A stretch of DNA of 64,000 bases, taken from Halanaerobium saccharolyticum (GTDB taxonomy: Bacteria > Bacillota > Halanaerobiia > Halanaerobiales > Halanaerobiaceae). Position numbers and translations under genes: made by a program. The notes under the pieces are model-generated. The model made no database searches and was not told the DNA's origin. It worked only from the letters and a program-made list of their open reading frames with translations. Where the stretch lies: assembly GCF_004362045.1 (NCBI RefSeq), contig NZ_SNWX01000001.1, positions 205,637 to 269,636 of the forward strand, written 5' to 3'. Shown here in pieces: positions 27,149 to 33,757 of this stretch (its first letter is position 1; each line of letters begins with the position of its first letter).

Positions 27149-27333
27149 ATGTCTAAAAAAGACGGTAAAAAGAAACTGGAAGAAATAAAAAAAATAACTT
27201 TTGTATTGAGTGATAAATTTTTAAATGATCAGAAATCTCAGAAATATGGAGGAATTACAAGATGGTTAGAATATTTAAGTATGCAGAAAGCAAGGAGAGA
27301 AAAAGCTTTTATTATATTAAGTTATTTAATTTC
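27149..27333 (+). pseudogene. Frameshifted C-terminal remnant of an Rpn-like gene
   Basis: The frame from 27149 encodes ITFVLSDKFL, matching LTIVLCDKFL of the intact gene upstream. The similarity then continues in another frame from about 27241 (EIWRNYKMVRIFKYAESKER), matching ELWRDRKMVKFFKYVEEQG. The two parts sit in the right order and spacing, so this is a decayed copy with a frameshift near 27240 and no N-terminal domain. Its 3' end overlaps the convergent ATPase-nuclease gene by a few bases. Confidence 0.7.
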
Positions 27334-29076
27334 CTCAACATAAACAGCCTCATTACAGGCAAAAATAACAATCCATTTCTTTAAGTTTTTAATTTCATTA
27401 AATTCTTCTGCAGTTGAATATTTAAGTAATTGAGTTCTGGCTGCAGCTGCTGATTTTTTAAGTAGTTTATCGCCGCTTTTTTTATAATCATTATTTTTAA
27501 TATATTTCAGTTCTATAAGTGCTTCGTATTTTACCTCATCCATTCTTTTAAAAAGTGCTATATCTAAATAGCCATTTTCTACTTCATACTCACTTTTTAC
27601 ATTATATATTTCAGGCAGCATCAGATAGGAAAGCATCAATATCTTGATATATTTTTCATCGAATTTAATAAAATCTCGATTAGAAAGTTTGCTTAGAATT
27701 GTTTCTATGATTTCAATAAATGCTTTAATTTCTCCTTTTTTAGCAATCTGGATGATGCTCTTTTTAATTTTTAAGTTGTCTACTTCAAAATTGCTGGCTC
27801 GAGAAACAATTTCCGCAAAATAATCAAAATAGATTTCCTTAACTGCATAATTTGGAATTTCAAACTGGGTTAAATTAAATTCATGATTGCTGATTGTTAA
27901 AAAGCCGAGATAGAAGAGCAGTGAAATGAAATCTTCTCTATTAAATCTGGAATTCAAGTTAAACTCCCTGCTAATTTTTGCTTCCTGGATTTCTTCTTTT
28001 AAAATACTCTTTAAGACTTCAAAATTATTTTCCTTATTTTTAAGTAAAAATAGATGTTCCAGTTTAAAATAGTCGCTGGATATATTTTTATCAACTAATT
28101 CCAGGGGTTCTTTAGAATTACGAAGAAAAGAATTGAAGTAATAGAGAATCATGTCACTATTAAATACTTTATTTTCTGCTTCAGGACTAAAAGAATATCC
28201 ATTATAATAATCTTTTAATTTTTTAATTATTTCCTTCTTGTTGAAAGTTGTATACCTGGCATGACTTTCTTTAAACTTCTGCTTGAAGCTGATAACTTTT
28301 TCATCTGAACTTTCAGTAGTGATTTGGTCAATAATTGCACATACTTCTTTAATTGTGAATCCTAAAAGCTGGTTTAAATTAGGATCTGTAGTTAAATCAG
28401 AGGCAATATTAAAGCCGCTGGTCATACTATCTAAAGCAATAGGGGTCACACCGGTGGCAAAAATACGCTCAATAATTCCAGATGTTGTTTTTTTCTTCAA
28501 CACCTCGAAAAATTTACGGACAAAATCACCTTTGCTAAAAACATTATTGAATTCATTAGTTTCAAAACTCAAAAGTTCATTGGCAAAGTGATCATATTCA
28601 TCAATGAGAACATAAACATTATTGTTGCTCTGGTCTTCCAATTTAGTTAAAAAGTTCTGTAGATAGCTTTGAGCTGTATTAGTTTCTCTAAATTTAAAAT
28701 CCAAATTATATTTATCCATAAAACTGTTGATAGTAACTTTAATTTCATTGAAAAAATCTTCTTCCAGATTATTCTTTCTTTCAATTCCGGAAAAATCAAA
28801 TTTTAAAATATAATAGCTGCTGGCAAGGTTAGTTTTGTTTTTACCGATATATAAATCAGAAAAGAGATCATTAAACTGATCCTTATAAGCAAGATCATAA
28901 TAGTGTTCCAGCGTTGAAAGCCAGAGGGTTTTGCCAAAACGGCGGGGGCGGAGAAAAAAGATATATCTTTCACCATAGCTTTCTAAAAGCTCTATATACT
29001 GAGTTTTATCGACATACAGATAGTTATTTTTTCTAATTTCAGCAAAGTTACTGAGACCGTAAGGGAGTTTAAGCAT
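27322..29076 (-). CDS. AAA-ATPase-like / PD-(D/E)XK nuclease protein (DUF1703 type)
   Basis: A 584-residue protein. The N-terminus LPYGLSNFAEIRKNNYLYVD and FLRPRRFGKTLWLSTLEHYY, containing a degenerate P-loop (RPRRFGKT), is the hallmark of the AAA-ATPase-like family often annotated DUF1703. A Walker-B-like VYVLIDEYDHFAN lies near residue 155. The C-terminus carries a PD-(D/E)XK-like core: YLDIALFKR followed by EALIELKYIK. The family is abundant in anaerobes and often multicopy; a role in defence or mobile-element biology is suspected but unproven. It starts at the ATG ending at 29076 after GGAAGGAG. The promoter carries a 29-bp element nearly identical to the one before the cassette at 33433. 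Confidence 0.85.
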   Translation of the reverse strand: MLKLPYGLSNFAEIRKNNYLYVDKTQYIELLESYGERYIFFLRPRRFGKTLWLSTLEHYYDLAYKDQFNDLFSDLYIGKNKTNLASSYYILKFDFSGIERKNNLEEDFFNEIKVTINSFMDKYNLDFKFRETNTAQSYLQNFLTKLEDQSNNNVYVLIDEYDHFANELLSFETNEFNNVFSKGDFVRKFFEVLKKKTTSGIIERIFATGVTPIALDSMTSGFNIASDLTTDPNLNQLLGFTIKEVCAIIDQITTESSDEKVISFKQKFKESHARYTTFNKKEIIKKLKDYYNGYSFSPEAENKVFNSDMILYYFNSFLRNSKEPLELVDKNISSDYFKLEHLFLLKNKENNFEVLKSILKEEIQEAKISREFNLNSRFNREDFISLLFYLGFLTISNHEFNLTQFEIPNYAVKEIYFDYFAEIVSRASNFEVDNLKIKKSIIQIAKKGEIKAFIEIIETILSKLSNRDFIKFDEKYIKILMLSYLMLPEIYNVKSEYEVENGYLDIALFKRMDEVKYEALIELKYIKNNDYKKSGDKLLKKSAAAARTQLLKYSTAEEFNEIKNLKKWIVIFACNEAVYVEEIK

Positions 29077-31160: not shown

Positions 31161-32228
31161 TTACTGATTATTGAGATTTAAACTTAATTGATGTTTTTTA
31201 ACAGCTTCATCTTCTCTTTTTATTTCTACTTTTAGAAATTCTTTTCTAAGATCGGTAATAGTATTTCTATCTTTTATATCTAAACTATATCCGTCATTAA
31301 TACTTTTATAATTGAAATTTTCAATATTTTGATCTAAAATAGAAATTATTTTGTTGAGATAAATTCTAGCTTTATTCCGGATAAATCTTTTAGTTTCAGC
31401 ATTGTTCCAGTTGTTCCAGATTTTAATCACATTTTCAAGAATATCTGTTTCTATATCTAAAATCACTTCTTCATTATTATCCGAATAATCAAGCTGTCCA
31501 AGGAAAACACCAAAATTGCTTTTTAGTCTTTTATAAAATACAATTTCCCCATATTCATCAGTTTCACCGGAACTATCAAGAGGTATTAAATAAAGTGGGG
31601 TAAGAGTGGTATTTTTTTCTAGGTTCATTACTCTAACTTTGTCTTTAAAATTCATATCAGATAATGAATTGTCTGGATCTATAAAATTAAGGAAAAGGTT
31701 ATTATCTTCTTCCGAAAAATATGATGTTGAAGGCAGATTTGTTTTTTCATTAAACAATGAACCTAAATCTTTGCTTAATTCTATTATTGTCTCAGAGAAT
31801 TCAGAAAGATAATCACTTTTAACAAAATTATAATTTAAGAGACCATAAAAATTTTCAGCCTCAATACCAAAACTTTCTGAAATTAAATCTGCATTGTATA
31901 TTAAAAAAGAAGTGGCCTGTTTTGTAGATCTAGTATTATTATTATCAAGATTAAAACACTGATTTTTACATTCGATAATAAGAAAATTTTTCTTATTTTT
32001 ATTTATAAATATTACTTCAGGTTTTGGGTTATCTATAAATTGAATATTATTTTGATTTAAAACATTTATATGACGGGGAGGTAAGGTCATTTCTGGTTCA
32101 ATAACAAGTATATCATACCCTTTATTATTAAAATATGGGTTTATCCAGCTTTCTCTCCCTTTTAAAGACATCCAGATTAATAAATTTAACTGCATCAAAG
32201 GATTTTTTTCTAAAGAAATATTGATCAT
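31161..32228 (-). CDS. Unrecognised protein with a PD-(D/E)XK-like motif (second gene of cassette)
   Basis: A 355-residue soluble protein that I cannot place in a named family. Residues 62-90 read as a nuclease core: Pro70-Glu71 at the start of a strand (PEVIFI), then a short turn, then FLIIECKNQ with Glu86-x-Lys88. About 10 residues later comes a helix with TKQATSFLIYNA, where restriction-like nucleases often have a Gln. The rest is mixed alpha/beta with a Lys/Asp/Asn-rich end (HQLSLNLNNQ). It overlaps the upstream 402-residue gene by 4 bp (ATGA), so the two are translationally coupled. DNA is very AT-rich. A role as the nuclease of a two-gene defence cassette is inference. Confidence 0.6.
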   Translation of the reverse strand: MINISLEKNPLMQLNLLIWMSLKGRESWINPYFNNKGYDILVIEPEMTLPPRHINVLNQNNIQFIDNPKPEVIFINKNKKNFLIIECKNQCFNLDNNNTRSTKQATSFLIYNADLISESFGIEAENFYGLLNYNFVKSDYLSEFSETIIELSKDLGSLFNEKTNLPSTSYFSEEDNNLFLNFIDPDNSLSDMNFKDKVRVMNLEKNTTLTPLYLIPLDSSGETDEYGEIVFYKRLKSNFGVFLGQLDYSDNNEEVILDIETDILENVIKIWNNWNNAETKRFIRNKARIYLNKIISILDQNIENFNYKSINDGYSLDIKDRNTITDLRKEFLKVEIKREDEAVKKHQLSLNLNNQ

Positions 32229-33433
32229 GACTTTAAGCCTCCTTCAAGAAAGCTCTTTTCGAGAAATTTATCATAAGATTCATCCCCAATATATACGTCA
32301 AAGTTAGGTTCTAAAAAGGTTTGAATATTGGTGATAAACCTATTTATTGTATTGCCACAGACTCCTTCTGGTAAAATCAAAACAAATAAATCGGGAGTTA
32401 GTTCCAGAAAAACTTCTTTCCAGAGGTGAAGATCTAAACCATAAACATGATATTTTTTCTCAGAAATTTTTAGCGGTTCACCCCAGAGTCTAAAATTTTT
32501 ATTTCTTTGCTGGAAGATTTTATAAATAAAGTTTTTGAAGATAGTTAAATCCAGACTTTTTTCAAATTCAATAATTACTGGACTGCCTTTTATTGTATAA
32601 CCACTGCTTTGGAAGTTGTGTTTTTCCTGTTTTAACCATGATTTTTCTTCTAATAATTTATTTAAATAACTGTAATTATCGAGAAGGAATTTTATATTGT
32701 GGTGTAAATCAATAAAGCTCCTGCTGCGGTTAGTTATCTTTCCATTATTATATAAGTCAATTCCTCCACCACTTTTTGCAGGAATTCTGAGCATAGATAT
32801 TGAATTTGCTGCCGGCCAATATTTCATTTTTCTCAATTCAGGTAGTATTTTATTTAGATTATTTATACTTTCACTTAAATTAAAATCTTTATGAGTTTCA
32901 ATATTTTTTAAATCCTCAATTAGTTCTTCGGGCGTATCTTCGCTTATGAAATTTTTGTTTATATTTGTTTTTAATTCACTGTCATATTTCATTTTTAGTT
33001 TGACATAGCGATAATCATTAAAATTATTTTTGATATAAGTATAGAAATTATAATAGAATGAATCCGCCAGCCATAAAGTATCAAGAAGAGGAGAATTTTG
33101 AATAACTTTCATCAATTTATTTTCAATAATTTCGGTAGTTCTTGTTGAGTAAAAAATAAAATATCTATCACTAAAGCTTTCAATCCAGGCTGCTGGTTTA
33201 TCATCTTCCTGATCGTCATCAATTTCTATAATATCACCTTGTAATTCAGATGAGTTATAATGATTATTGATTTCGTCAAAAAAATCTTTCTTCTTATTAA
33301 CACAGGAAGTTTCTACAATGTATGATTTAAGCAGAGGAGATCTAGTTTTATGACAGTCTAATTCGTCTTTTTTTTCGGCAGAATGCTTATTAAAATAACT
33401 GAATAATTCTTCTCTGGATTTATAGTAACTCAT
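32225..33433 (-). CDS. Unrecognised 402-residue protein (first gene of cassette)
   Basis: I do not recognise this family. It has no signal peptide or membrane segment. An acidic loop EIDDDQEDDKPAAW lies near residues 96-109. A central block SMLRIPAKSGGGIDLYNNGK is followed by SFIDLHHNIKFLLDNYSYL. The C-terminal third looks alpha/beta: GSPVIIEFEKSLDLTIFKNF, then KYHVYGLDLHLWKEVFLE and DLFVLILPEGVCGNTINRF. The start ATG ends at 33433 and follows GGGGAGA. It shares a 29-bp promoter element with the ATPase-nuclease gene, and the PD-(D/E)XK-like gene is co-translated after it. It may be a recognition or sensor partner, which is inferred from position only. Confidence 0.55.
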   Translation of the reverse strand: MSYYKSREELFSYFNKHSAEKKDELDCHKTRSPLLKSYIVETSCVNKKKDFFDEINNHYNSSELQGDIIEIDDDQEDDKPAAWIESFSDRYFIFYSTRTTEIIENKLMKVIQNSPLLDTLWLADSFYYNFYTYIKNNFNDYRYVKLKMKYDSELKTNINKNFISEDTPEELIEDLKNIETHKDFNLSESINNLNKILPELRKMKYWPAANSISMLRIPAKSGGGIDLYNNGKITNRSRSFIDLHHNIKFLLDNYSYLNKLLEEKSWLKQEKHNFQSSGYTIKGSPVIIEFEKSLDLTIFKNFIYKIFQQRNKNFRLWGEPLKISEKKYHVYGLDLHLWKEVFLELTPDLFVLILPEGVCGNTINRFITNIQTFLEPNFDVYIGDESYDKFLEKSFLEGGLKS

Positions 33434-33495: not shown

Positions 33496-33589
33496 TATTA
33501 AGATGAAAAAATTTCCAAATTAATTTACAAAAAAATAATTATATGATAAACTATTAATAGTAAAAGAAATTATGAAGGGAGAGATTTTT

Positions 33590-33757
33590 ATGGCTACCTC
33601 ATCTATATTCTCTCATCTAGAGATAAACTCTGATGAAAAGATGGATATTTTGATTAATGAACTCTCTAAAGAGGAAAGAAATATCAAGAAACCCCAAAAA
33701 AGAAATATTGACCAATATCTAGAAAAGGGTAAAGAAATATTAGAAGAAATCCATTAG
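33590..33757 (+). CDS. Orphan antitoxin-like small protein
   Basis: A 55-residue protein starting at ATG 33590 (GGGAGAG at 33577-33583, 8 bp spacing); an in-frame ATG at 33572 lacks a ribosome-binding site. The sequence begins MATSSIFSHLEINSDEKMDI, a pattern I associate with small antitoxin-like proteins of anaerobes that begin M-x-T-S-S and carry a short acidic helix. The C-terminus (RNIDQYLEKGKEILEEIH) is helical. No toxin follows; a terminator comes directly after the stop. It may be a relic or a solitary antitoxin. It is divergent from the cassette at 31161-33433. Confidence 0.5.
   Translation: MATSSIFSHLEINSDEKMDILINELSKEERNIKKPQKRNIDQYLEKGKEILEEIH

Follow-up and report, generated by a model that had tools for sequence, protein, structure and literature searches.

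Several described systems come close to the gene pair analysed here, each in a different respect. EndoMS/NucS is a PD-(D/E)XK-type endonuclease with a C-terminal motif for the sliding clamp (PCNA or beta) that boosts its activity, and is thus a precedent for a nuclease activated via such a motif (PMC8228993). In the toxin-antitoxin system SocAB the effector SocB acts via the hydrophobic cleft of the beta clamp; it is described as blocking replication elongation, while no nuclease is described (PMC9690074). RNase HIII uses TBP-like domains to bind RNA-DNA hybrids, and domains of this kind are also fused to relatives of RNase LS (PMC3710099). A further system to be considered is type I restriction, with the N-terminal nuclease of HsdR (HSDR_N_2, PF13588).

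The pair, whose genes we call A and B, was found in a 64,000-nucleotide stretch of Halanaerobium saccharolyticum DNA (hereafter, the window), flanked by a methyl-accepting chemotaxis gene on one side and by the flagellar genes on the other. Compared with EndoMS/NucS, B is larger, has its nuclease core N-terminal to a winged helix, is accompanied by the conserved partner A and is often located in defence islands. Homology of B to NucS, with its C-terminal catalytic domain, was not supported, as no PDB chain was matched by phmmer or by profile and the core is N-terminal. HSDR_N_2 was the only recurrent family match among the 11 B members scanned (4 of them, best E 0.0034, below the Pfam cut-off); however, A-B includes no helicase, methyltransferase or specificity subunit. 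The N-terminal region of A resembles the RnlA repeat and TBP, weakly and only at the level of the fold, but no HEPN or RNase H domain match was found in A. Our main reading, to which we assign a probability of about one half, is that the two genes make up a mobile defence system, B being a clamp-tethered PD-(D/E)XK nuclease and A its recognition or licensing partner.

Neither window protein gave a convincing match in Pfam, NCBIfam or PADLOC 2023, and searches of PDB sequences with single proteins and with profiles returned nothing for either of them. No convincing family match was obtained for the relatives of A, including the 12 members scanned with the PADLOC 2023 HMMs; matches of A to FokI_D3 and DHR-2 were discarded as noise. 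As for B, the same HMMs gave two stray single-member matches (E 0.016 and 0.038), which do not make it a member of a known defence family. Open-access papers on MJECL, Upx, TBP-like sensors and defence nucleases that bind the clamp yielded no description of the pair. The view that both families are unrecognised and the system undescribed, taken in an earlier reading of the sequence alone (hereafter, the sequence-only reading), therefore holds against Pfam, NCBIfam, PADLOC 2023, PDB sequences and open-access papers. The pair is probably uncatalogued and is filed neither as NucS (no homology) nor as any PADLOC system (no match); a later description cannot be excluded, because the defence-model library dates from 2023 and only open-access papers were covered.

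Organization, distribution and co-divergence of the gene pair

The two open reading frames of 402 and 355 residues, which the sequence-only reading had reported to overlap by four bases, were found exactly so on the minus strand, with ATGA in common (Table 1). They do lie in AT-rich DNA, the G+C content being 28.6% for A and 25.4% for B versus 34.5% for the window. The single promoter that had been proposed for both genes could not be substantiated, since promoter-like matches did not exceed those in shuffled sequences (17 vs 15.7 +/- 3.6).

Table 1. Positions of the genes, domains and motifs discussed (window coordinates unless a locus of a relative is named)
Feature	Position	Strand	Description	Evidence
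Gene A	32225-33433	minus	402 aa; leads the pair; putative sensor or adaptor subunit	ORF; homologues 5' of B in all 19 pairs; no known family
Gene B	31161-32228	minus	355 aa; putative PD-(D/E)XK nuclease subunit	ORF; alignments including the 19-member one
Overlap of A and B	32225-32228		ATGA
A, about residues 33-260 (5-260 at widest)	32654-33337	minus	two sheet-rich domains	weak TBP/CENP-L/RnlA-repeat resemblance
A, residues 283-385	32279-32587	minus	conserved C-terminal domain	weakly AdoMetDC/spermine-synthase-N/YwmB-like
A, residues 359-362	32348-32359	minus	C-G-N-T motif	C, N, T in 19/20; lost in G457
B, residues 11-20	32169-32198		N-terminal QLNLL	fits clamp-motif pattern
B, residues 70-104	31917-32021	minus	putative nuclease core, P70-E71 ... 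E86-C87-K88 ... Q104	P70, E86, C87, K88, Q104 invariant in 11 B proteins
B, residues 225-335	31224-31556	minus	predicted winged-helix-like domain	VIA-align p45C Z 5.6, condensin Brn1 5.2, MukE 4.7
B, residues 347-352	31173-31190	minus	QLSLNL, sliding-clamp-binding-like motif	disordered C-terminal tail; Q347 invariant in 11 proteins
ATPase-nuclease gene	27322-29076	minus	AAA-ATPase_like + PDDEXK_9
Isolated gene	33572-33757		61 aa
PemK/MazF-like gene upstream of A	L030:8113-8841, L029:9039-9767, L027:9032-9769, L031:449-1159, L007:14054-14770
Gene B of H. saccharolyticum WC1 (G025)	L011:9398-10464		B frameshifted
Pair of G457	L050:1372-3694		A and B degenerate
A-like genes without B	L053:1949-4119, L054:3976-6162, L055:4530-6472		adjoin endonuclease/exonuclease/phosphatase-like gene
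Natronosalvus plasmid gene	L035:7959-8399		146 aa, resembles C-terminal domain of A

The neighbourhood survey for conserved pairing that the sequence-only reading had recommended was run over the class, the phylum, GTDB genome contigs and a plasmid collection. It yielded 19 A-B pairs in the sampled genomes and plasmids (the window's included), along with A alone or shortened copies, and A was directly upstream of B in all 19. The hosts belong to Bacillota (Halanaerobiales; Bacillales, namely Anoxybacillus, Oceanobacillus, Bacillus, Planococcus, Metabacillus and Lysinibacillus; and others in the phylum), Chloroflexota (Anaerolineae), Actinomycetota (Rubrobacter) and, among archaea, Euryarchaeota (Halobacterium hubeiense and Methanocaldococcus jannaschii). 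Archaeal sampling is restricted to these two full pairs, because an alignment covering both domains proved too heterogeneous as a seed for scanning the collection. The preservation of gene order between bacteria and archaea indicates that the pair is more than a chance association. Pairwise distances of A and of B are congruent (r=0.957, Mantel p=0.0001); of 171 comparisons, all but one show A to be the more conserved of the two. The Lysinibacillus pair and the two archaeal pairs form one branch, its exact placing being unsure due to long branches.

The presence of the pair is patchy: it was found in 5 of 59 genomes of the class and in 6 of 398 in the phylum sample. In Halanaerobium the flagellar marker could be located in 9 genomes, and 3 of these have the pair at the chemotaxis-flagellar site; in two others (G022 and G026) the chemotaxis receptor adjoins the flagellar genes without the pair, and G024 lacks both. 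Several copies are plasmid-borne, including those of M. jannaschii and Halobacterium. This patchy, mobile presence led us to reject a housekeeping role as the main reading. Viral origin was rejected as well, no relatives of A-B having been found in phage records or in scans of viral contigs.

The main rival to defence is an addiction (toxin-antitoxin) pair, in which B would be a nuclease toxic at the host replication fork, A its proteic antitoxin, and any defence a matter of abortive infection. The overlap of the genes with A in the first place, the plasmid carriage, the higher conservation of A and the example of SocB, a known toxin acting through the sliding clamp (PMC9690074), all agree with it. 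An indirect hint is provided by H. saccharolyticum WC1, in which an early frameshift disrupts B but A remains intact; a harmful B would be expected to be lost first. On the other hand, A is large and multidomain, with many invariant polar residues, unlike typical antitoxins, and in G457, where B is devoid of the (D/E)xK residues, A has lost its CGNT motif (the QLELDF tail of B being kept). This joint loss links the CGNT motif with the nuclease of B and speaks for a function common to both proteins, beyond mere neutralisation. We consider an addiction pair unlikely on balance, though by no means negligible.

Defence genes and mobile elements around the pair

Within about 10 kb of the A-B pairs of relatives, PADLOC detected type I restriction-modification (L030 and L031), an AriA/GajA-like (AriA/Gabija-like) ATPase, to which the annotation adds HsdR (L009), a CBASS cyclase with a 4TM effector (L033), Lamassu LmuB (L014/L026) and type III CRISPR Cas10-Cas5-Cas7 (L059). 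Altogether six loci lie beside known defence genes, which amounts to an association with defence and mobile elements, although without a random-gene control; no defence neighbour was evident at L032, L056 and L058. In L030, A-B is located just behind TnsB-, TnsC- and TniQ/TnsD-like genes and is cargo of a Tn7-like transposon.

A PemK/MazF-like gene of about 240 aa precedes A immediately at five Bacillales loci and on one probably contaminant contig, and is a possible third component. A contig from a Planctomycetaceae MAG (L034) has the same gene order and spacing as a region of the Metabacillus plasmid pB218 and therefore probably represents contamination or a shared plasmid.

As to the window itself, the sequence-only reading had placed the pair among an MntA-HepT pair, an ATPase-nuclease gene, an Rpn-like nuclease and an orphan antitoxin-like gene. 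MntA and HepT match PF18765 and PF20797, and the ATPase-nuclease gene (G+C 29.4%) contains both domains, without a PADLOC match; the Rpn-like gene could be retained with a sub-threshold DUF4351 match only. The label "antitoxin-like" has no support, as the gene in question, which is isolated and without a partner, gave no convincing family match. The inferred defence setting is borne out by the six loci of relatives better than by the window, and the choice between defence and addiction remains undecided.

The surroundings bear also on the possibility that A-B is an accessory nuclease of DNA repair or replication quality control, resembling NucS, which the clamp would bring to the fork for A to recognise a lesion or mismatch, with no role in defence. 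A nuclease with a clamp-type tail has the architecture of EndoMS/NucS (PMC8228993), and the binding of RNA-DNA hybrids by the TBP-like domains of RNase HIII (PMC3710099) would be in line with such recognition. Nonetheless, patchy presence, carriage by plasmids and a Tn7-like element, defence-gene neighbours and low G+C content are ill-suited to a repair gene, and we regard this role as improbable.

Putative nuclease core and C-terminal tail of protein B

Almost all of the 19 B proteins share the elements P-(D/E), (D/E)-x-K and a subsequent Q, the (D/E)-x-K pattern being present in all of the alignment but G457. In the window protein, P70-E71 and E86-x-K88 lie in, or directly beside, a pair of adjacent predicted strands (residues 72-76 and 81-88), as the sequence-only reading had inferred, and this mark of the PD-(D/E)XK superfamily, a conserved motif on adjacent strands, is shown by every B member except G457. 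The predicted structure is of limited confidence (pLDDT 66.9, pTM 0.63). For its core (about residues 30-200) the best VIA-align rows include Upx, SdaI, BsmI, AF1548, Bax1, N.BspD6I, Card1 and Can2, with many PD-(D/E)XK enzymes among the matches but Z of only about 4-5.7, values of 5-6 being within the chance range for models without clear kin; Foldseek found no structural match to the model with E <0.001. Taken together, the conserved core residues, the weak HSDR_N_2 matches and the low-Z structural ones agree with the restriction-like nuclease core proposed earlier, and the designation of B as a putative PD-(D/E)XK nuclease is supported by its sequence, its activity being inferred.

The clamp-binding-like tail of B was missed by the sequence-only reading and is new here. 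The tail peptide carrying Q347 and L350 is KKHQLSLNLNNQ; residues 337-355 have pLDDT <50 (about 30), i.e., are predicted to be disordered. The published consensus for beta-clamp binding is Q-phi-x-[L/M]-[F/L] or Q-phi-x-[L/M]-x-[F/L] (PMC13254535). QLSLNL of the window matches it exactly, so that B presents an exposed consensus peptide, as a sliding-clamp client should. In the same genome, taken as a control, QLNLF occurs in two DinB-type polymerases and QLPLF in a protein of the MutS family. Other B proteins end with QLNFNF, QISFEF, QLSLF (Lysinibacillus), QIPLF (G314), QLELDF (G457), QLTIDEF or QMTIDEF (Bacilli), as well as QLSFDD, QLNFSS and QMPLSD, while the motif is absent from the tails of B in Halobacterium and in G284. 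A looser form, Q[LMI]x[LIFMV], is present in 16 of the 19 tails (10 of 13 once related members were thinned out). Among the C-termini of the remaining ORFs at these loci it occurs in only 20 of 320 (6%), and shuffling gave a mean of 0.75 of 13; since the sequences are related, the counts cannot be treated as independent. B of M. jannaschii ends with QTTLD, which reads as a PIP-like tail in a host using PCNA.

The strict consensus is fulfilled by only four of the 19 tails (the window, Lysinibacillus, G314 and G457), and most tails of Bacilli are QMTIDEF-like variants outside it. The conserved tail could dock on A instead of the clamp. In a corresponding alternative, an otherwise ordinary two-subunit restriction-like system would use the tail to dock B on A or some other partner, without any involvement of the clamp; the strong co-divergence of A and B would also be expected in this case. 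Nevertheless, QLSLF, QIPLF, QLELDF and QLSLNL are separate exact matches to the consensus in four divergent lineages, and the tail is kept in G457, whose A and B are both degenerate, which leaves this alternative with little likelihood. A second consensus-like stretch, QLNLL, near the N-terminus of B is common to most bacterial members and is probably a helix of the fold; its existence shows that motif matching alone is not specific. The clamp-binding-like tail is well supported as a feature of the sequence, while binding to the clamp is inferred from it.

Protein A and the proposed mode of action

The AlphaFold model of A is of good quality (pLDDT 79, pTM 0.82). For the N-terminal region, VIA-align gave CENP-L as the longest match (Z 8.0, 191 residues, 4.9 A, 8% identity), along with KA1 (Z 8.4) and the RnlA repeat domain (Z 6.9), and Foldseek listed TBP repeatedly, with no E <0.001. 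Residues 283-385 match the spermine-synthase N-domain, AdoMetDC and YwmB with Z of 5.9-7.2. Such values are typical of the best matches for models without clear kin, for which reason the structural matches to A are used as a hint only, and the TBP-like domains of A are to be understood as no more than a hint from the model. The likeness to the kinetochore fold of CENP-L/CENP-N/Iml3, being at chance level, implies no functional link, and A as a kinetochore-like protein was rejected. The most conserved part of A is its C-terminal domain with D-x-H and C-G-N-T, the near-invariant residues being D334, H336, C359, G360, N361, T362, R365, N369 and Q371.

Three genomes of a single family in the same phylum as the window encode divergent A-like proteins that have no B but adjoin an endonuclease/exonuclease/phosphatase-like gene, which hints that A is a module able to serve other enzymes. 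A Natronosalvus plasmid encodes, within an operon of small unknown genes, a free-standing protein that is similar to the C-terminal domain of A but lacks CGNT; it had no match in phage records.

According to the main reading, B would be a PD-(D/E)XK DNA endonuclease with a winged-helix domain, and its disordered C-terminal tail would dock on the replicative sliding clamp of the host, so that the nuclease reaches replicating DNA. A, weakly TBP- and CENP-L-like, would serve for recognition or licensing. Probably in complex with B, it would restrain the nuclease and let it cut on meeting DNA (or an RNA-DNA hybrid) whose structure is typical of invading replicons. The computation shows the gene pair with its conservation and congruent divergence, the core residues of B, the tail motif, the patchy and mobile presence and the defence neighbours, whereas the complex, its trigger and the protection of the host are inferred, as are clamp binding and cleavage. 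The broader proposal, an uncatalogued immune system of bacteria and archaea in which a clamp-delivered nuclease has a TBP-like partner telling foreign from host replication, and in which the clamp peptide was retuned from the beta-clamp type to the PIP type in archaea, is tentative, and we hold it to be possible rather than probable.

If the main reading is true, A-B would be an uncatalogued two-gene defence system spread across bacteria and archaea, one copy of which is represented by "hypothetical proteins" on a plasmid of M. jannaschii. A defence nuclease recruited by the clamp would find actively replicating foreign DNA without reading its sequence or modification.
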